NCBI GenBank assembly: GCA_016875025.1
Contig: VGSH01000019.1
Location: 1-35,374 of the forward strand
From: Deltaproteobacteria bacterium
Lineage (GTDB): Bacteria > Desulfobacterota > WTBG01 > CAIYCZ01 > CAIRTM01
DNA length: 35,374 nt
Reading direction: 5' to 3'
The translations under genes and the position numbers were made by a program. Shown here in pieces: positions 3,734-20,586 of the stretch. The stretch's first letter is position 1; every line of letters starts with the position of its first letter. The notes under the pieces are model-generated. The model saw only the letters and a program-made list of their open reading frames with translations, had not been told where the DNA came from and searched no databases.

Positions 3734-3824
3734 CCCGTTCGTGGTGAGCTTGTCGAACCATGAACGGATCGTATACATGCGATACGTTGTCCGTTCGGCC
3801 CTTCGACAGGCTTAGGACGAACGG
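3734..3824. repeat. Dispersed palindromic intergenic repeat, copy 1
   Basis: cccgttcgtggtgagcttgtcgaaccatgaacgg...cccttcgacaggcttaggacgaacgg; inverted homolog at 9834-9922. Confidence 0.75.
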
Positions 3825-3935
3825 ATGCTGTTGTATTGCCGGCCATAATATTCAAAAAAAATGCTTTATTCCCTTCGTCAAACCTCTTCAAAACAGGGCT
3901 CCGGTGCAACATGGAAAACTGGCCGCGGGGATCGC

Positions 3936-6267: not shown

Positions 6268-8346
6268 GTGGCAAAAGACATTACACAACTGAGAAACATC
6301 GGCATCTCCGCCCACATCGACAGCGGAAAAACAACGCTCTCCGAGCGCATCCTGTTTTACACCCGGCGCATTCACGCAATTCACGAAGTGCGCGGCAAGG
6401 ACGGCGTGGGCGCCACCATGGACTTCATGGAGCTGGAGCGCGAACGCGGCATTACCATCACGAGCGCGACCACCTACTGCGAATGGCTCGATCACCACAT
6501 CAACATTATCGACACACCCGGCCACGTTGATTTTACGATCGAGGTCGAGCGCGCCCTGCGCGTGCTTGACGGCGCCGTGCTGGTGCTGTGCTCGGTAGGC
6601 GGCGTGCAAAGCCAGTCTTTCACGGTCGACCGCCAGATGAAGCGCTACAATGTCCCGCGCATCGCATTCGTCAACAAATGCGACCGTGTGGGCGCCAACC
6701 CCGTGCGCGTGCGCGATCAGCTGCGCGAAAAGCTTAACCATAACCCGGTCCTGATGCAGATTCCGATCGGACTCGAGGACAAGCTCAGAGGCGTAGTCGA
6801 CCTGGTGGAGATGAAGGCCATCTGGTTCGAGGGCGATTCCGGTGAAGACTTGCGCACCGGCTCTGTTCCGCCGGAACTGCTGGAAGAGGCGCAGAGCTAC
6901 CGCGAGGAAATGCTCGACGCCGTATCCATGTTCTCCGATGAGCTGATGGAGGCCATTCTTGAAGGCTCCCCGACCTCTGAACAGATTCACGCCGCAGTGC
7001 GCTCCGGCACGCTTTCGCTGAAGCTCACGCCGGTATTTGTGGGATCAGCCTATAAAAATGTCGGCGTACAGCCGCTGATGGACGCCGTGGTAAAGTATCT
7101 GCCCGCGCCCTGCGATATTACCAATGAAGCAATTGACCTGTCCTCGCCGGAGGAGCACACCATCGCGTTGTCACACTCCCCCAAAGACAGCGCCGTGATG
7201 CTCGCCTTCAAGCTCGAAGACGGCCGCTACGGGCAGCTCACCTATCTGCGCATGTATCAGGGCCGCATCACCGCCGACTCACAGATCATCAACACCCGCA
7301 CCGGCCGCAAGCAGAAAGTCGGCCGCCTGGTGCGCATGCATGCCGACAAAATGGAAGACGCCACCGAGGCCAGAGCCGGCGATATCGTGGCCATGTTCGG
7401 CACGGACTGCAATTCCGGCGATACGTTCACCGACGGCAGCCTGCATGTTTCCATGACCTCGATGTTCGTGCCCGAACCGGTTATTTCCCTGTCGATCAAG
7501 CCCGTTGACCAGAAGGCCGAAGCCAACCTGTCAAAGGCGCTGCGCCGGTTTTCAAAGGAAGACCCCACATTCCGCGCCGAGGTCGATCCCGACTCGGGCG
7601 AAACCGTTATCCGCGGCATGGGCGAGCTGCAGCTCGAGGTATATATTGAGCGCATGAAGCGCGAATACAGCGCCGCGGTTGAAACCTCGCCCCCGCGCGT
7701 TGCCTACCGCGAAACCATTTCGCAGCGGGCTGATTTCAATTACACCCACAAAAAGCAAACCGGCGGTTCGGGCCAGTACGGCCGGGTCGCGGGCTTTATG
7801 GAACCCTTCGCGGACGGCGAATTTGAATTCACCGACCAGGTCGTGGGCGGCGCCATACCGCGTCAATTCATTTCAGCCGTTGAAAAAGGCTTTGCATCAA
7901 TGCTGGCCAAGGGGCCGCTGATCGGCGCGAAAGTCACCAACGTGCGCGTCGAGATAAATGACGGCGCCTCGCACGCGGTCGACTCCTCCGACATGGCCTT
8001 CCAGGAAGCCGCGCGCGGTGCATGGCGCGAAACATTCACCAAAGCCGCACCTAAAATCCTCGAGCCGATCATGCGCGTTACGGTTGAGAGCCCGTCGGAA
8101 TTTTCCGGCAACATTCTGACCACCCTGATGCAGCGGCGCGGCATGATCGTGGGCTCGCATGAAGACGGCGCAATCGTGCGCATTGAAGCCGAAGTGCCGC
8201 TTGCCGACATGTTCGGCTATGCGACGGTGCTGCGCTCAAGCACGCAGGGCAAGGCTGAATTCACCATGGAATTTGCGCGCTACCTGCCGGTTCCGGCCTC
8301 GATCGCTGAGGAACTGATTGCGCAGGCACGCTCGAAATCAAAATAG
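6268..8346 (+). CDS. fusA: Elongation factor G, mitochondrial EFG1/spdEFG1-like subtype
   Basis: 692 aa. [82 protein letters not shown] resembles mtEFG1. GTG start. Confidence 0.95.
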
Positions 8347-8373
8347 ATGCAGTGCAGATCAAAGGAGACTGGC

Positions 8374-9666
8374 ATGAATATACAGCAGCTCATATCTTCC
8401 AGCCCGGTCAGAATGCTGGAAAACATGATGGCAGGTGCTCTCGGCAGCGGCACGCTGGGCGTGTGCATGGCGCACGCCGGAATCGGCAAAACCGCCTTCT
8501 TAATCCAGATCGGCATTGACGCCGCGCTCAGCGGCAAAAAAGTGCTGCACGTCGCGCTCGGCCAGACAACCGAGCATGTGCAGTCATGGTATGAAACGTT
8601 GCTCAAGGATGTGCTGGCGCGCTGCGCCGTGGACGGCGCCGATGAGATCATTGCCGGCGCAGCCTCATGCCGTGTGATCCAGAGCTTTGCCGACCGCAAT
8701 TTTACCGCCGACCGGCTTCAACAGGTCGTCGAGCTCTACCGCTCGAACATGCAGTTCGCGTCCGACATCATTATTATCGACGGCTTTGACTGGGAAAACC
8801 TCAACGATATTGAAACCGCGGCACTGCTGGGCGCGTGCAAGGCATGCGCCGCAAGCCTGGGCGCCGGCCTGTGGATGAGCGCCGGCACGGGTCCGGACGG
8901 GGACCAGGCACCAAGGGCGCTGCCACGGCCGTGCGACATGTTTGAATCGCTGATTGACGCGGCGATTTTTCTCAGGCCGGACAACCGCCAGGTGCAGGTA
9001 TACCTGCTCAAAGCACCGGGTGCGGCAGACGCCAACCCCGTCATGCTGCTGCACAGCGATACCTTCCGCCTGGTTTCACCCGGCCAGATACCTTCGGCGC
9101 CGGCAAGCCCGGCAGCCTATGTGCTGCTCTCCGGCGGCGCGCAGGGAGCTGAAGAAGCCTTCGGGCAGTGCGCTGAACAGTGGGGTGTGCGTGAAGAAAA
9201 CTATACGTTTGCCGGCCATAAGCCGGCCCGAACGCGCGGGCTGGTCGTTCTCTCCGATGCCGAGCTCGAGCAGGGCCATGTCAGCCAGGTATACCTGAAA
9301 GCCCAGATGCACCGCAGCTACCCGGACATGAACACCATCAACAGGGTTATCCAGTCGATCTGGCATCAGGTCAATACGGCTTCCGAAGTTTTTGTGGTGG
9401 GAACGATCAATGACGATGCCACCGTGCGGGGCGGCACGGGCTGGGCAGCCGAACTGGGCCGGCACTGGCGCAAACGCGTGTTTGTGTTCGATCAGGGGAA
9501 AAAGGCCTGGTTCCGCTGGAACAACGGCGCCTGGGCCGTGGAGCATGAGCCCCGCATCACCGGCGCGCGCTTTACCGGCACGGGCACGCGCAATCTGACC
9601 GATCATGGCCGCGAGGCAATCCGTTCGCTGTTTGAGCGCTCATTCGGCACGCCGGCAGGCGCGTAG
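8374..9666 (+). CDS. Uncharacterised P-loop (RecA/KaiC-like) ATPase with C-terminal SLOG/Rossmann-like region
   Basis: Walker A-like MAHAGIGKTAF, Walker B-like DIIIIDGFDW. C-terminal half has LLSGGAQGAEEAFGQCAEQWG and ASEVFVVGTINDDATVRGGTGWAAELG. Confidence 0.6.
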   Translation: MNIQQLISSSPVRMLENMMAGALGSGTLGVCMAHAGIGKTAFLIQIGIDAALSGKKVLHVALGQTTEHVQSWYETLLKDVLARCAVDGADEIIAGAASCRVIQSFADRNFTADRLQQVVELYRSNMQFASDIIIIDGFDWENLNDIETAALLGACKACAASLGAGLWMSAGTGPDGDQAPRALPRPCDMFESLIDAAIFLRPDNRQVQVYLLKAPGAADANPVMLLHSDTFRLVSPGQIPSAPASPAAYVLLSGGAQGAEEAFGQCAEQWGVREENYTFAGHKPARTRGLVVLSDAELEQGHVSQVYLKAQMHRSYPDMNTINRVIQSIWHQVNTASEVFVVGTINDDATVRGGTGWAAELGRHWRKRVFVFDQGKKAWFRWNNGAWAVEHEPRITGARFTGTGTRNLTDHGREAIRSLFERSFGTPAGA

Positions 9667-9794: not shown

Positions 9795-9833
9795 AAGGCA
9801 TATTTCTAAACACACTATCCTTCAATAAACTAT

Positions 9834-9922
9834 ACGTTCGCCCTGAGCCTGTCGAAGGGCCGAGCGGATCACGTATCGCACGACAGACCCGTTCATGGTT
9901 CGACAAGCTCACCACGAACGGG
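9834..9922. repeat. Dispersed palindromic intergenic repeat, copy 2
   Basis: acgttcgccctgagcctgtcgaagggccg...cccgttcatggttcgacaagctcaccacgaacggg; inverted relative to 3734-3824. Confidence 0.75.
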
Positions 9923-12225: not shown

Positions 12226-14415
12226 CTACTCCGGCTTGAACACAACACAACTGAGAGGCGGAAGCGTTATTTCGATTGAATGCTCGCGGCCGTGGCAGGG
12301 CCAGCGTCCGGAGTGCACCCCTCCGAGATTGCCCATGTTGCTGCCGCCGCAGAGAGCGGAATCGCTGTTGAGAATTTCGCGGTAAAATGCTTCCCTGGGC
12401 ACGCCGATGCGGTAACGCTCGCGAGGTACCGGGGTAAAATTATACGCACAGATCAAAACGTCAGATGAGTTGCGCGCGCGCCGCATGAAGGTAACGATGC
12501 TGTCGTCGGCATCGTTAAAATCGATCCATTCAAACCCGGCATACTCGAAATCAAGCTCATAGAGTGCGGGCGATCCGGTGTACAGGCGGTTGAGCGCACG
12601 CACGAAGTCATTGAGCTTGCGATGCGGGTCCCAGACGAGCAGGTCCCAGGGCAGGCTGCCGCTGTAATCCCACTCCGACCACTGGCCGATATCGATACCC
12701 ATGAACAGCAGCTTCTTGCCCGGATGCATGAACATGTAGCCCAGAAGCGCGCGCACATTGGCAAACTTGCGCCAGTCATCGCCGGGCATGCGGCCCAGAA
12801 GCGACCCCTTGCCGTGCACGACCTCATCATGTGAAAAGGGCAGCACGAAATTTTCATAGAAGCTGTACATCAGCGCAAAGGTCAGCTGATTATGATGATA
12901 CTTGCGGTGCACCGGGTCCTTTGAAATGTAGGTCAGCATGTCGTGCATCCAGCCCATGTTCCACTTCAGGCCAAAACCCAGACCGCCAAGACTGGTCGGC
13001 CGCGACACAGCCGGCCACGCGGTTGATTCCTCGGCGATCATCAATACGCCCGGATGATAGCCGTACACGATCTCGTTCAGGCGCTTGATGAAGTCGATGG
13101 CCTCGAGATTTTCGCGGCCGCCGTGGCGGTTGGGTATCCATTCGCCCTGTTCGCGTGAATAGTCCAGGTACAGCATGGAGGCGACCGCATCAACGCGCAG
13201 GCCGTCCACATGGAACTGCTCGAACCAGTACAGGGCATTGGCCGTGAGAAAATTGCGCACCTCGTTGCGGCCGTAGTTGAACACCAGCGTGCCCCAGTCA
13301 GGGTGCATGCTCTGGCGCGGATCAGCATGCTCATACAGGCATGTTCCGTCAAAGCGGGCAAGCGCATGATCGTCCGTTGGGAAGTGCGCCGGCACCCAGT
13401 CGAAGATCACCCCAATGCCGCTGCCGTGGCACTGGTCGACCAGGTAGCGCAAATCATCAGGCGATCCGTACTGTGCCGCAGGGCTGTAATAGCCCGTTAC
13501 CTGATAGCCCCATGAAGGGTCATAGGGATGCGTGGCAAGCGGCATGAACTCGATATGCGTGTAGCCCATGTCCTTCACATACGCGATCAGCTCATCGGCC
13601 AGGGCCCGATAGTTCGGATCGCCGCCGCCTGCGGGCCGCTTCCAGGAACCGAAATGCACTTCATAGACCGAGATCGGCCGGTCAAGCCTCAGACGTGCGT
13701 CCCGCTGCGCCAGCCAGTCCTGATCAGCCCAGCTGTAACGGGAAGGCACGCTGGTGACCGAGGCGGTGCTGGCCCGCGCCTCAGAACATTGCGCGTAGGG
13801 ATCGGCCTTAACTGTGATATGGCCGTCGGTCGTGCGGATCTCGTACTTGTACGGCTCGCCCGCCCTGATGCCGGGCAAAAACAGCTCCCAGACACCGCTA
13901 GCGCCGCGAACCCGCATCGGGTGGATGCGGCCGTCCCAGTTGTTGAACGAGCCGACCACGCTGACCCGCTGTGCACTCGGTGCCCAGACCGAAAACAGAA
14001 AACCTTCACAGCCGCGCAGCGTTGTCGCATGCGCGCCGAGTTTTTCATAAATTTTATTATGATTGCCCTCGGCAAACAGGTGCAGATCAAAATCCGACAG
14101 CACCGGAGGAAAAGAGTACGGATCATCGAGCATTACTTCGACGCCGCCGGGATAGCTCACGCTCAAGCGGTAGTCGAAAAATTCACTCTCCCCTGCAAGC
14201 CGGGCCTCAAAAAGCCCTGAGCGGTGAATGCGTTCCATCGCTGCGGGCTCGCGTCCCTCAGCGCAGCCGATCACCCACACAGCCTCAGCTCCGGGCCGGA
14301 ATGCGCGCACAATAAGCCCGCCCTCGCACGGATGCATGCCCAGCACCTGAAACGGATCATGATGCTCGGCACTGACAATTTTTCGTATAACCTGCTGTGA
14401 CAGCGCAGCGCGCAT
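12226..14415 (-). CDS. glgB: 1,4-alpha-glucan branching enzyme
   Basis: EVHFGSWKRP, VDGLRVDAVASMLYLDYSR, MIAEESTAWP, PFSHDEVVHGKGSLLGRMPGD. Preferred ATG at 14415 with aaaggag upstream. Confidence 0.95.
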   Translation of the reverse strand: MRAALSQQVIRKIVSAEHHDPFQVLGMHPCEGGLIVRAFRPGAEAVWVIGCAEGREPAAMERIHRSGLFEARLAGESEFFDYRLSVSYPGGVEVMLDDPYSFPPVLSDFDLHLFAEGNHNKIYEKLGAHATTLRGCEGFLFSVWAPSAQRVSVVGSFNNWDGRIHPMRVRGASGVWELFLPGIRAGEPYKYEIRTTDGHITVKADPYAQCSEARASTASVTSVPSRYSWADQDWLAQRDARLRLDRPISVYEVHFGSWKRPAGGGDPNYRALADELIAYVKDMGYTHIEFMPLATHPYDPSWGYQVTGYYSPAAQYGSPDDLRYLVDQCHGSGIGVIFDWVPAHFPTDDHALARFDGTCLYEHADPRQSMHPDWGTLVFNYGRNEVRNFLTANALYWFEQFHVDGLRVDAVASMLYLDYSREQGEWIPNRHGGRENLEAIDFIKRLNEIVYGYHPGVLMIAEESTAWPAVSRPTSLGGLGFGLKWNMGWMHDMLTYISKDPVHRKYHHNQLTFALMYSFYENFVLPFSHDEVVHGKGSLLGRMPGDDWRKFANVRALLGYMFMHPGKKLLFMGIDIGQWSEWDYSGSLPWDLLVWDPHRKLNDFVRALNRLYTGSPALYELDFEYAGFEWIDFNDADDSIVTFMRRARNSSDVLICAYNFTPVPRERYRIGVPREAFYREILNSDSALCGGSNMGNLGGVHSGRWPCHGREHSIEITLPPLSCVVFKPE

Positions 14416-14496
14416 ATTCAATTCTCCTTTTAAAACGCTCTGGGTTATCTTCCGCCTGCCTGTCCGGGCCTGTCAAGCGTGGGGACTTTTTTAGTC

Positions 14497-16443: not shown

Positions 16444-16631
16444 TATTAATTTTAATAACTTATTATTTTTAAGTAGTCAAGGTTAAAGTGGAATCCCTGT
16501 CGTAATTCAAATTCGTTCGGCGTACCAGTACCGCATGAGCAAAAAAAGTCGACAGAAAAAACGCTACCCGCCCCGCTGGCCTGACCGCATGGTTCGTCGG
16601 TCCATTTGAAGCCCTATCGCTGCCGTGCGGG

Positions 16632-16714
16632 TGCAAGCCCAGCACCTGAAACGGATCATGATGCTCGGCATTGACGATTTTTTTGTTTACCTGCTGCGAT
16701 AACGAGCTGCGCAT
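16632..16714 (-). pseudogene. Truncated 5' fragment of a second glgB
   Basis: MRSSLSQQVNKKIVNAEHHDPFQVLGLHPHG aligns with intact GlgB MRAALSQQVIRKIVSAEHHDPFQVLGMHPCE; homology then stops. Confidence 0.85.
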
Positions 16715-16783
16715 ATTTTTTCTCTTTGCGATACGGAACGGAGTCACACGCTTTACAACCCCAACTTCCGTTCTATTTATCAA

Positions 16784-16882: not shown

Positions 16883-18010
16883 TTAGTTTGCATGAGACAC
16901 CTCCAGAACCCGTAAAAGATGCTCGCGGATTTCTTTTGCCGTCGCTCCAAGATCAACGGTGGCAAATCGAATCTCATGGTTTTGGATCACAACGGCTTCG
17001 TTAACCATATCGCCCACTGAGGGGTGAAGGAGCAATCCCGATGCATGCTCCGCTAGCAGATCGCCATTACCTTCCTGAGACCTCAAATAGGCGTAAATTT
17101 GATAGACATATCCGCTTCGCAGCGTTTCTTCCCGATACCAGCCACGCGTCACGACAGAGTTGAACTTCGTATCGATAACGATGCGGCGTCCCGCGTCCGA
17201 GTTGTCGAGGATAATGTCGGTTCGCATAGAAGGGAGGATTTTGTCTATGCCCGGACTTTTGTTTTTAATGGACCAACAAATTGTTTTGCCCGCGTCGACG
17301 CGCCATCCTTTTTGGGAAAGCACGACATCATAGAACCCAGCGATCCCTTTCTCGTAAAGCTTCCGAATCCAGGTGATTTCTCTATCTGGCAGCGATAAAT
17401 GTTTTGCACCTACTGACTCTGTAGGCAGGGCAAGGTTGAAGGCCAGATGGGCTGCCGTTACCATTGGCTGGTCCTCTGCATCGTGCCTGCCAAAGCGGTT
17501 GATGGAGACCTCTCCACTGCGTGGTCGCTCCCCGGTTACGCCCATACGCCTCAAACTTGCCGCCAGCGACCTGCACCGGTGAGCAAGTGCGCCACGGAGA
17601 ACTATTTTGGATATTTCCTCCAGGGCTCCTCGGACAAAGCGGTTTCGGGGGGTATCGATTGTCAATTCATCGAACCGGCAAGCTACTTTACCCCGATCAA
17701 GTAATTGGTGCCTTTCAGTGTTCAGCAGGTCGATGCGCCCGCGCACACGACCAAGAACAGCCACCCGCGATTGGTACCCATAACTCAAGTTGCGTTGAAT
17801 GCGGTGCTCGACCTTGCGGCAGAGAATTTCTGCGACCAGGTCTGGGATGTCATCCGGGTTTTCCTCTACGGCGATTTTTGCCTTTTCGAGAGCCCTGAAG
17901 AGATTCGATGCGTACAGCATAAGCAACCAAAGGTTGCGCACCGGGATGCGGCCGATCCGACCGATCCCTTCATGAGCGTTTGATATCAAATTGGCTGCAG
18001 CAAGAGTCAC
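16883..18010 (-). CDS. mcrC: McrC-like subunit of a McrBC-type type IV restriction system
   Basis: IPVRNLWLLMLYASNL, nuclease-like DIILDN...RRIVIDTKFN, and linkage to the McrB-like gene. Confidence 0.85.
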   Translation of the reverse strand: MTLAAANLISNAHEGIGRIGRIPVRNLWLLMLYASNLFRALEKAKIAVEENPDDIPDLVAEILCRKVEHRIQRNLSYGYQSRVAVLGRVRGRIDLLNTERHQLLDRGKVACRFDELTIDTPRNRFVRGALEEISKIVLRGALAHRCRSLAASLRRMGVTGERPRSGEVSINRFGRHDAEDQPMVTAAHLAFNLALPTESVGAKHLSLPDREITWIRKLYEKGIAGFYDVVLSQKGWRVDAGKTICWSIKNKSPGIDKILPSMRTDIILDNSDAGRRIVIDTKFNSVVTRGWYREETLRSGYVYQIYAYLRSQEGNGDLLAEHASGLLLHPSVGDMVNEAVVIQNHEIRFATVDLGATAKEIREHLLRVLEVSHAN

Positions 18011-18012
18011 AA

Positions 18013-20586
18013 TCAGAACCCTTCAAGAAGCCGCTCCCTGGCCTTTTGAGATTTTTCAAGCGCATCGAACCAATATTCATCGAGCAGCGGCCCGATCTCG
18101 GTATCAACAACTTGGCGAAACCATTCCCGGGCATCACTGATCGGAACACCGAATGGCGGTGTGACATAGCTGTGTCCCACCCGGAACTGAGGGCCAAGAC
18201 TGATGTCGGCCGAGATTTCGTTGTTCAGAGCAACAAGACGTTTCTCGATTTCGACAAGGATTTCTGAATCAATACCGCACTGAGATTGAACCCAATCATG
18301 CCAGGGCTTGCCGAGCGTGGGCTCCAGATCGATAAAGGCAAAACGTCGGCGCAATGCCAGATCGACCAGTGCCAGGGAGCGATCGGCAATGTTCATCGTG
18401 CCTATGACATAGAGGTTGTCCGGAATAAAGACCCTCTCGCCAACCGACCGCTTATAGGAAAGCTCTAAGGCTTCATTCGGCGTTCTCTTGTCAACCTCGA
18501 GCAACGTCAACATCTCTCCTAAAATCTGTGCAGGGTTACCTCGATTAATTTCTTCGATGACGATAACGTACCTCGACATGGGATCTTTCGCAGCCGCCTT
18601 TATCATCTCCACGAAAGGCCCATCCACTAGCGTGAGCTTGCCGTCGCCCACGGGCCGCCAGCCCCGTATGAAATCCTCGTAAGAAAGATTTGGGTGAAAC
18701 TGGACTGCGCGGACTTTGCTGTCATCTCGTTGCCCCATCAAAGCAAAAGCCAGTCGCTTTGCCAGCCAGGTCTTTCCTGTCCCCGGCGGCCCCTGCAGGA
18801 TCAGATTTTTCTTGGTCCGGAGGCGCTCAAGAATTTTTCCGATTTTTTCTATGGCGAAGAAAGACCCATCAGCCAAAATGTTATCTATTGAATAAGGGAC
18901 TATTGGCTGAGCCTCATCTAAAACAGAAGATGAGTTCGAAAAGAAATCGGTAAAATGCCTGAGTTTATCCAGCTCTGATTTAGGCTGATTTAATAATTCC
19001 ATGCCTTTTTCAGAAATCTGAACGAATCCTCTTCTGGGAAAGTCAACTAATTCCGCCCGCTTTAAATAAGATTTTGCCCAAGCCGCACGATTATTAAATA
19101 ATGGTTGGCCTGTAGACTCAAGAGTGATGACATCATATTTTTCCAGACCCATTTCGATTTTAAGTTTCTGATATACATCTCTCGCAAGCTGCTCCCGCCC
19201 ATCCCTCAACTGTCTCAAAAAGGGGATCATCAAATCGTCAAATTTAGGAAGTAAATTCTTCAAATCAACATCAATTGCATCTGGTTCAACACCGTCCTCA
19301 AACATTTCGTCATCCTGCGCATCTGGATCTGTTGCATTCGGATGGGCAGATGTCCCACTGTCCTTAAAAAGCCAAGCAGCAAGGGAAAGTTCTGGAAAGG
19401 AGTGAACCGGATAAGCGTCCTCTTGAAATCGAGCTTCGAGGGCGTCCAGCACCGCAAGATAATCACTCGCATTGCAACGCCCCTTAGGGCCGTTCATGCC
19501 AATCTGAATATTAAGCTTCTTGTTGATGTAGCGCTGTGACTGGCCATCAAGTGTCGGAAAATTCCAGGGGCGAACCCAGTAAAGCCCCATGGTAAGGTTC
19601 CATCCGACACCCCAACTCTGCGTCGCTCTGTCGTAGGCAGCAACAAATGCTGACCGTGCATCAGCATCATCCGATTCCGCAAAAGCAACTGCCTGGCTGA
19701 AGACTTCCCATAGCGCGTCAATGTCATCTGATTGGCGCCTGTAGCTATAGCTAAAAAACCATGTCCTCTGATTGTTCAGAACTGGGATCCCCTCAAATGA
19801 GTCGGGGACAGGTTCTGTTACACCAAGCAGGCCGGCCAGTTCACTCGCTATGGCTTTACGATTGGCATCAGTAATTCCCCTGTTGAATATGCCCATGGCC
19901 GTGAAAGGGCAGATGTCCTTCAATGGCCCTCCTGGAACGTTTTCTTCATATTGGTCATTGAGAATCGACATGCAGTCGAAATTGTCTGCAATGGCATGAA
20001 TGCCGGAAACCAGCTCTTCACGCCTGTTACGAAAGGTGAGAAGCTTATCCGCCACCGCCTCATAAAATCGGGTCCAGTTGAACCGACGTTTGTCGACGGT
20101 ACTATCACCAAAACGCTCTCGCCAATAGGGAGCGTTGCGAAACCGGCTGATGTCTTGAGGCTTTTCCTCGAACGCAAATCCGATCAGGGCGTCTGTGGTC
20201 CAGTCGCCAGGCAAGACCCGCCAGACCGTGTTTCGGTAGGTATAAAAGTACCACTCACGCGGCGGATCGAAGGGTTTCCATTCAACCCTCAAGACGCGGC
20301 CATCACCGAGATTCTCCTTTACCGTGCCAATGGCCTTAATCGCCATGACAGAAACTGTTTGGCCTCGGTTATCAAAGGGCAAATCGTGTTTCCGCGTATA
20401 GGTCGACTTAATCGCAATACGGTCTCCAACCTGTATGGATTTCACCACGTCAAGGTATCTATCCTGATACCCATTCTCCCAAATACCCTCCTGCAGAAAC
20501 CGAGGTGATTGATCATCAGTTCCATCATATGTGGCCCCAACAAACCAGCTGGCTCGCGCCCCAGCTCCTTCTGATCTGGCATTCAT
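18013..20586 (-). CDS. mcrB: McrB-like AAA+ GTPase with extended N-terminal modules
   Basis: GPPGTGKTWLAKRLAFAL, VQFHPNLSYEDFIRGWRP, VIVIEEINRGNPAQILGEMLTLLE, GTMNIADRSLALVDLALRRRFAF. Confidence 0.9.
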   Translation of the reverse strand: MNARSEGAGARASWFVGATYDGTDDQSPRFLQEGIWENGYQDRYLDVVKSIQVGDRIAIKSTYTRKHDLPFDNRGQTVSVMAIKAIGTVKENLGDGRVLRVEWKPFDPPREWYFYTYRNTVWRVLPGDWTTDALIGFAFEEKPQDISRFRNAPYWRERFGDSTVDKRRFNWTRFYEAVADKLLTFRNRREELVSGIHAIADNFDCMSILNDQYEENVPGGPLKDICPFTAMGIFNRGITDANRKAIASELAGLLGVTEPVPDSFEGIPVLNNQRTWFFSYSYRRQSDDIDALWEVFSQAVAFAESDDADARSAFVAAYDRATQSWGVGWNLTMGLYWVRPWNFPTLDGQSQRYINKKLNIQIGMNGPKGRCNASDYLAVLDALEARFQEDAYPVHSFPELSLAAWLFKDSGTSAHPNATDPDAQDDEMFEDGVEPDAIDVDLKNLLPKFDDLMIPFLRQLRDGREQLARDVYQKLKIEMGLEKYDVITLESTGQPLFNNRAAWAKSYLKRAELVDFPRRGFVQISEKGMELLNQPKSELDKLRHFTDFFSNSSSVLDEAQPIVPYSIDNILADGSFFAIEKIGKILERLRTKKNLILQGPPGTGKTWLAKRLAFALMGQRDDSKVRAVQFHPNLSYEDFIRGWRPVGDGKLTLVDGPFVEMIKAAAKDPMSRYVIVIEEINRGNPAQILGEMLTLLEVDKRTPNEALELSYKRSVGERVFIPDNLYVIGTMNIADRSLALVDLALRRRFAFIDLEPTLGKPWHDWVQSQCGIDSEILVEIEKRLVALNNEISADISLGPQFRVGHSYVTPPFGVPISDAREWFRQVVDTEIGPLLDEYWFDALEKSQKARERLLEGF

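Follow-up and report, generated by a model that had tools for sequence, protein, structure and literature searches.

What does a gene that belongs to no characterised family do directly behind one for a translocase of the mitochondrial lineage? The question arises from a 35,374-nucleotide contig of a deltaproteobacterium, analysed over its whole length (the window), in which an ATPase fused to a SLOG-type domain follows a gene for elongation factor G (EF-G). The parts list of translation elongation is regarded as closed, and the SLOG fold has its known roles in the synthesis of hormones, in immunity, and in the uptake of DNA. If the pairing reflects function, elongation or its control would gain a new factor in Desulfobacterota, Myxococcota, and Acidobacteriota, in the form of a conserved partner for the EF-G lineage that is the sister group of mitochondrial EFG1, and the SLOG fold would gain a role at the ribosome.

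The gene and its EF-G partner

The reading frame lies on the forward strand, starting with an ATG at position 8374 and ending with a stop at 9666, and it encodes a protein of 430 amino acids. The upstream EF-G stop ends at 8346, leaving the 27-nucleotide gap described in the original prediction, and direct reading of this gap reveals a good ribosome-binding site, AAAGGAGAC, at 8361 to 8373 on the same strand. An orthologue in the same genus shares 85% identity with a dN/dS of 0.18 over the whole gene (0.19 in the N-terminal half and 0.18 in the C-terminal half). Because of this orthologue and the conserved motifs described below, the gene is confirmed as real, beyond chance, with both halves under purifying selection. 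The full-length protein has no family above cut-off in Pfam or NCBIfam, no PADLOC match, and no convincing match among PDB sequences; membership in a characterised family had been set beforehand as one of two findings that would count against the original prediction, and these searches returned none.

The upstream gene (6268 to 8346, forward strand) encodes an EF-G of the spdEFG1 subfamily, the sister group of mitochondrial EFG1. It scores 937 bits against TIGR00484, and its best match in the PDB is human mtEFG1 at 786 bits, compared to 684 bits for bacterial EF-G. A KDG insertion in switch I is given as the defining spdEFG1 signature in PMC3150367, and the switch I of the window EF-G reads GKDGVGA, with the insertion present. 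The same insertion occurs in 60 of 63 EF-Gs linked to the ATPase, and all 30 of those sampled for a tree fell into a single clade (support 0.996) separate from EFG I. Searches of PMC3150367 and PMC4342817 brought up no accessory gene for spdEFG1.

Two observations on other EF-Gs accompany these results. The window genome also carries a fast-evolving EFG I-like gene (locus L042 on G000:C64) that lies outside any str operon and adjoins genes for glutamate racemase and a GerMN-like protein; spdEFG1 as the sole EF-G of this genome is not tenable. In Kapabacteria and Ignavibacteria (L213 and L214), EF-Gs with a three-residue switch I insertion (SKGGAG and SKTGSG) form the sister branch of the ATPase-linked spdEFG1 clade; a SLOG gene is present there and the ATPase absent.

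The pairing was surveyed in genome sets from the window's own phylum, Desulfobacterota (n = 296), from Acidobacteriota (n = 149), and from Myxococcota (n = 144). Among Desulfobacterota, spdEFG1 was found in 98 genomes and the ATPase in 97, with both matched in 96. Only two genomes (G103 and G179) have spdEFG1 by itself and none has the ATPase alone, counting as paired one genome (G261) in which a contig edge truncates the EF-G next to the ATPase. The two genes are neighbours on the same strand in 94 of the 96 double-match genomes, with 14 to 249 nucleotides between aligned cores. In one genome (G007), the EF-G is split over two contigs and its C-terminal part adjoins the ATPase, and another (G175), at a contig edge, was not counted among the adjacent pairs. 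The 94 adjacent pairs, together with G007 and G261, therefore place spdEFG1 directly upstream of the ATPase in 96 of 97 ATPase genomes. A link to EF-G peculiar to the window is ruled out by this recurrence, and co-transcription with EF-G, originally proposed from the short gap alone, is strongly supported by adjacency conserved across genomes. Those relatives of the window's family that carry names are metagenome-assembled genomes (MAGs) of deltaproteobacteria or Thermodesulfobacteriota.

Outside the phylum, the ATPase accompanies spdEFG1 in each of the 15 Acidobacteriota genomes with this EF-G; two more genomes carry the ATPase with no spdEFG1 detected. Myxococcota are different in proportion: spdEFG1 occurs in 88 genomes, the ATPase in 49, and both in 48, leaving 40 of the 88 spdEFG1 genomes without the ATPase. 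In 36 of these 40, a permissive profile found no ATPase in the region downstream of EF-G, some of these regions ending at contig ends. The Myxococcota regions thus rule out a constant requirement of spdEFG1 for the ATPase. Because genomes with spdEFG1 only show no ATPase downstream, the ATPase is an accessory that depends on spdEFG1, and not vice versa, and the 40 Myxococcota genomes, together with the two Desulfobacterota, indicate that it is not indispensable for spdEFG1.

The two domains

The N-terminal half (residues 1 to 237; 8374 to 9084, forward strand) is a P-loop ATPase of the RecA superfamily with Walker A (AHAGIGKT, residues 33 to 40), Walker B (IIIIDG, residues 132 to 137), and a RecA-type core. 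This assignment is made because of agreement between structure and sequence profiles. An AlphaFold2 model of the full-length protein, built with 104 relatives, has a mean pLDDT of 92.5, and Foldseek matches it to KaiC (the top match), a RAD51 complex, T7 gp4, T4 gp41, and DnaB with E values from 1e-11 to 1e-9. A profile of the N-terminal half against the PDB finds the DnaB-like helicase T4 gp41 at 3e-11, its best sequence-profile match among solved structures. Weak NCBIfam matches to KaiC_arch and RadB all fall under the curated cut-offs. The domain shares only its core with the hexameric helicases DnaB, T7 gp4, and T4 gp41, as it has no helicase N-terminal domain, and in other families it stands alone as a separate gene.

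Conservation within the ATPase family is uneven. Nearly all of 67 sequences examined keep Walker A, in the form [AS]xxGxGKT, and the Asp of Walker B, with Glu at the Walker B position in a few. The position of the KaiC/DnaB catalytic glutamate, by comparison, is variable: the window has GQ there, and relatives have E, D, G, H, S, or other residues. This pattern suggests that ATP binding is under stricter retention than fast hydrolysis, and because the catalytic-glutamate position is not conserved, ATP binding may act as a switch. The same residues bear on the idea that spdEFG1 is phosphorylated, or modified in some other way, by the RecA/KaiC-fold domain under the control of a nucleotide-sensing SLOG domain. 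The position of KaiC at the top of the structural matches and the strict pairing with a single likely target agree with such a kinase or modifier, but the protein has one ATPase domain in place of the tandem CI-CII arrangement, the EE catalytic pair of KaiC is not conserved, and the scores against KaiC and RadB families stay below their cut-offs, so that we regard this activity as unlikely.

The C-terminal half (residues 249 to 425; 9118 to 9648, forward strand) is a Rossmann domain of the SLOG type in circularly permuted order. Its landmarks are an LSGGAQGAE loop, GGTGWxxE at residues 353 to 360, and a permuted strand, FTGTGTR, close to the C terminus. Modelled alone, it reaches a pLDDT of 92.5 and a pTM of 0.90. 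The best structural match in the PDB is 3IMK, a putative molybdenum carrier protein, at a probability of 1.00 and TM scores of 0.55/0.64 but with an E value of 0.019 and 12% identity. We take 3IMK to belong to the circularly permuted YpsA group of SLOG proteins; its alignment with the C-terminal half is sequential, so the same permutation is present in both. Sequence searches with the C-terminal half against solved structures returned no match, and Pfam SLOG families match weakly, with YAcAr in 9 of 56 family members and cpYpsA (PF12694) in 2 of 56, where the best E value of 0.015 is not significant. Although cpYpsA and 3IMK resemble the domain in fold and permutation, the VFDQ..W..W beta-hairpin and the GGTGWxxE motif of the new family fall outside the Pfam model.

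The permutation was shown with a phage profile. The PHROG "DprA-like" profile phrog_768 matches the C-terminal half at 7e-9, from profile position 33 onward. When the domain was searched as a tandem copy, positions 5 to 175 aligned across the junction and the score rose from 36.4 to 72.9 bits; a second family member behaved likewise (30.7 bits in tandem compared to 15.9 in single copy). The first strand-helix unit has therefore been moved to the C terminus. Permuted-SLOG relatives in the same order are also encoded in 82 phage records, jumbo and crAss-like phages included (e.g., LR756500.1, NC_055896.1, and NC_019526.1), where they are usually annotated as hypothetical or DprA-like.

Given this profile, the phage annotations, and the RecA fold of the N-terminal half, one could imagine a DNA-processing pair: the RecA-fold ATPase would be loaded onto single-stranded DNA by a DprA-like SLOG domain, and EF-G would be an incidental neighbour. 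We consider this quite improbable: adjacency to spdEFG1 in 94 of 96 double-match genomes is not incidental, and the separate SLOG genes discussed below adjoin genes for ribosome factors and not recombination genes. Apart from the PHROG profile there is no DprA match in Pfam or NCBIfam at the DprA/Smf family cut-off, and the cellular domain is permuted relative to phrog_768.

Across 160 C-terminal domains, GGTG (353 to 356) is present in all 160, R314 in 159, and E360 in 157, and E260, W379, and G404 are invariant. These residues look like a ligand-binding or active site. The motifs quoted in the original prediction are all present, AGIGKTAF at residues 35 to 42, DIIIIDGFD at 131 to 139, LSGGAQGAEEAF at 252 to 263, and RGGTGWAAELG at 352 to 362. 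Its proposal of a RecA/KaiC-like ATPase followed by a Rossmann/SLOG fold also holds, with the qualification that the SLOG domain is permuted; the second finding set beforehand as counting against it, a predicted structure with no such fold in the C-terminal half, did not occur.

Fused and separate forms

The fused form is found in the window's family, in Sorangium, Polyangium, and Minicystis, and in numerous MAGs that carry a Myxococcota or Acidobacteria label, and it always sits behind EF-G. In a tree of ATPase domains, all fused domains lie on one side of a single split, on a poorly supported branch, and the EF-G tree repeats the grouping of fused-type operons. Because the two trees group alike, the operon of the window's family belongs to the Myxococcota-type version, possibly as a result of transfer.

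Elsewhere, the SLOG domain is a separate gene of about 190 amino acids with about 50% identity. Its distribution follows that of the ATPase in Desulfobacterota (both, 40; ATPase only, 52; SLOG only, 38; neither, 161; odds ratio 3.3, p = 3e-5) and in Myxococcota (13, 8, 4, and 91, respectively; odds ratio 37, p = 6e-9), with p-values that overstate significance because shared ancestry is ignored. In a tree of 160 SLOG domains, one clade (support 0.865) takes in the fused copies without exception (40); its separate copies come from ATPase-positive genomes in 41 cases and from ATPase-negative genomes in 8, compared to 17 and 54, respectively, outside it (p = 7e-11, overstated by the same phylogenetic nonindependence).

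Two further arrangements were seen downstream of the ATPase. In one genome, an unfused ATPase gene is immediately followed by a remnant that matches only the final 34 positions of the SLOG profile (L189; G253:C42:2085-2186, minus strand), perhaps the scar of a lost fusion. In five other loci (L197, L202, L204, L205, and L206), an uncharacterised gene of about 240 amino acids (MPLEDDLIASLTQQ...) is found directly 3' of the ATPase.

The separate SLOG gene has its own set of neighbours. It lies just 5' of spdEFG1 and the ATPase in three loci (L138, L187, and L188), precedes TypA/BipA in family f32 and in L140 and L146, precedes RF3 in L133 and L296, and converges on RF3 in L303. In family f22 (L031, L164, and L165) it precedes ArfB, and one Acidobacteriota genome (L356) has the order ArfB, SLOG, ABC-F. 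An RRM RNA-binding protein adjoins it in Acidobacteria and Binatia. Ribosome-acting factors flank the SLOG gene in 5 of 31 Desulfobacterota families (f22, f32, f68, f91, and f100), well above the roughly estimated 1% expected for a random gene, in a neighbour category that was defined post hoc.

Neighbours of other kinds also occur. CmoB and MnmE flank the SLOG gene in some members of family f19, and in a subset of Desulfobacteria it lies between rdgB and cobD. With cmoB and mnmE as tRNA wobble-modification genes and rdgB as a nucleotide-sanitation gene, the SLOG domain could be an enzyme of the LOG type that cleaves the N-glycosidic bond of AMP-like or modified nucleotides released from tRNA or NAD, regulated by the ATPase and linked to translation through turnover of modified RNA. 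GGTGWxxE resembles the PGGxGTxxE motif of LOG phosphoribohydrolases with its Glu kept, the broader GG.G...E pattern is common to both, and a conserved Arg, here the near-invariant R314, is a further likeness. Against this enzyme, which we judge improbable, the domain has no significant match to a LOG family, its motif has Trp in place of Thr, and its order is permuted.

Proposed role and other features of the window

Because the gene is paired with a mitochondrial-like EF-G in almost every genome that holds it, we think it somewhat probable that the ATPase-SLOG protein is an undescribed translation protein that goes with spdEFG1 as an accessory or regulator. The main rivals of this reading are the KaiC-like modification of EF-G and the LOG-type nucleotide hydrolase considered above. 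Genomics gives good support to the link with translation, and from the same comparisons we infer a biochemical mechanism. Since they are fused and coinherited, the ATPase and SLOG domains would act together, and since EF-G and other ribosome factors are their neighbours, they would do so in translation. The ATPase would probably assemble as a ring or dimer, with ATP binding as its switch, and the SLOG domain would bind, and perhaps cleave, either a small nucleotide of the adenine type or part of an RNA, for example the end of a tRNA or mRNA. Precedent for the ligand would be a small nucleotide by analogy with LOG- and YpsA-like proteins (PMC9503650) or RNA by analogy with nucleic acid binding of DprA-like proteins. 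The combined state would then act on spdEFG1 or on the factor-binding site of the ribosome, so that translocation is tuned or rescued in keeping with the nucleotide or energy status of the cell or with the stalling of ribosomes. Where the ATPase and SLOG domains are encoded by separate genes, the two proteins would be expected to work as a complex. Counting against a role in translation are the many SLOG genes in genomes without the ATPase that sit next to nontranslation genes, those for RdgB and CobD among them.

A broader proposal is plausible, and we advance it tentatively: an unrecognised module may couple spdEFG1, of the mitochondrial-type translocase lineage, to an ATP-driven machine that contains a SLOG domain. 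There may also be a wider family of permuted SLOG proteins that act with EF-G, BipA, RF3, ArfB, and ABC-F and that possibly sense RNA or nucleotides to regulate translation or the rescue of ribosomes. Both folds are already known. The ATPase family, the permuted SLOG family, and the link to spdEFG1 were found in none of the open-licence literature searched, and this link makes a set of uncharacterised genes directly testable.

The original prediction had also noted that SLOG domains recur in conflict systems. They do occur in Thoeris and further immune systems (PMC9503650), and the window itself holds an McrBC-type restriction pair about 7 kb away, at 16883 to 20586, consisting of McrC and an AAA gene that resembles McrB and carries an Mrr_N domain. 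A defence system in which the ATPase and a SLOG sensor halt translation upon infection is nevertheless very unlikely. Membership in a known anti-phage system was rejected, as no PADLOC model matched. The SLOG domain has no match among plasmids, and the gene is single copy, retained vertically across its family, and tied to a fixed operon partner of the housekeeping type; the connotation of conflict was not upheld.

Several features of the window lie apart from this operon. A short fragment of the start of glgB (GlgB_N) at 16469 to 16783 is found about 2 kb upstream of a complete glgB (12226 to 14421), with a DUF4143 ATPase gene and a helix-turn-helix gene between them, as if the 5' end of glgB had been duplicated by an insertion. 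A palindromic repeat around GTTCGCCCTGAGCCTGTCGAAGGG / CCCTTCGACAGG is present in two copies, at about 3760 to 3850 and about 9830 to 9920, and one copy lies partly within the predicted start of a pyruvate kinase ORF.
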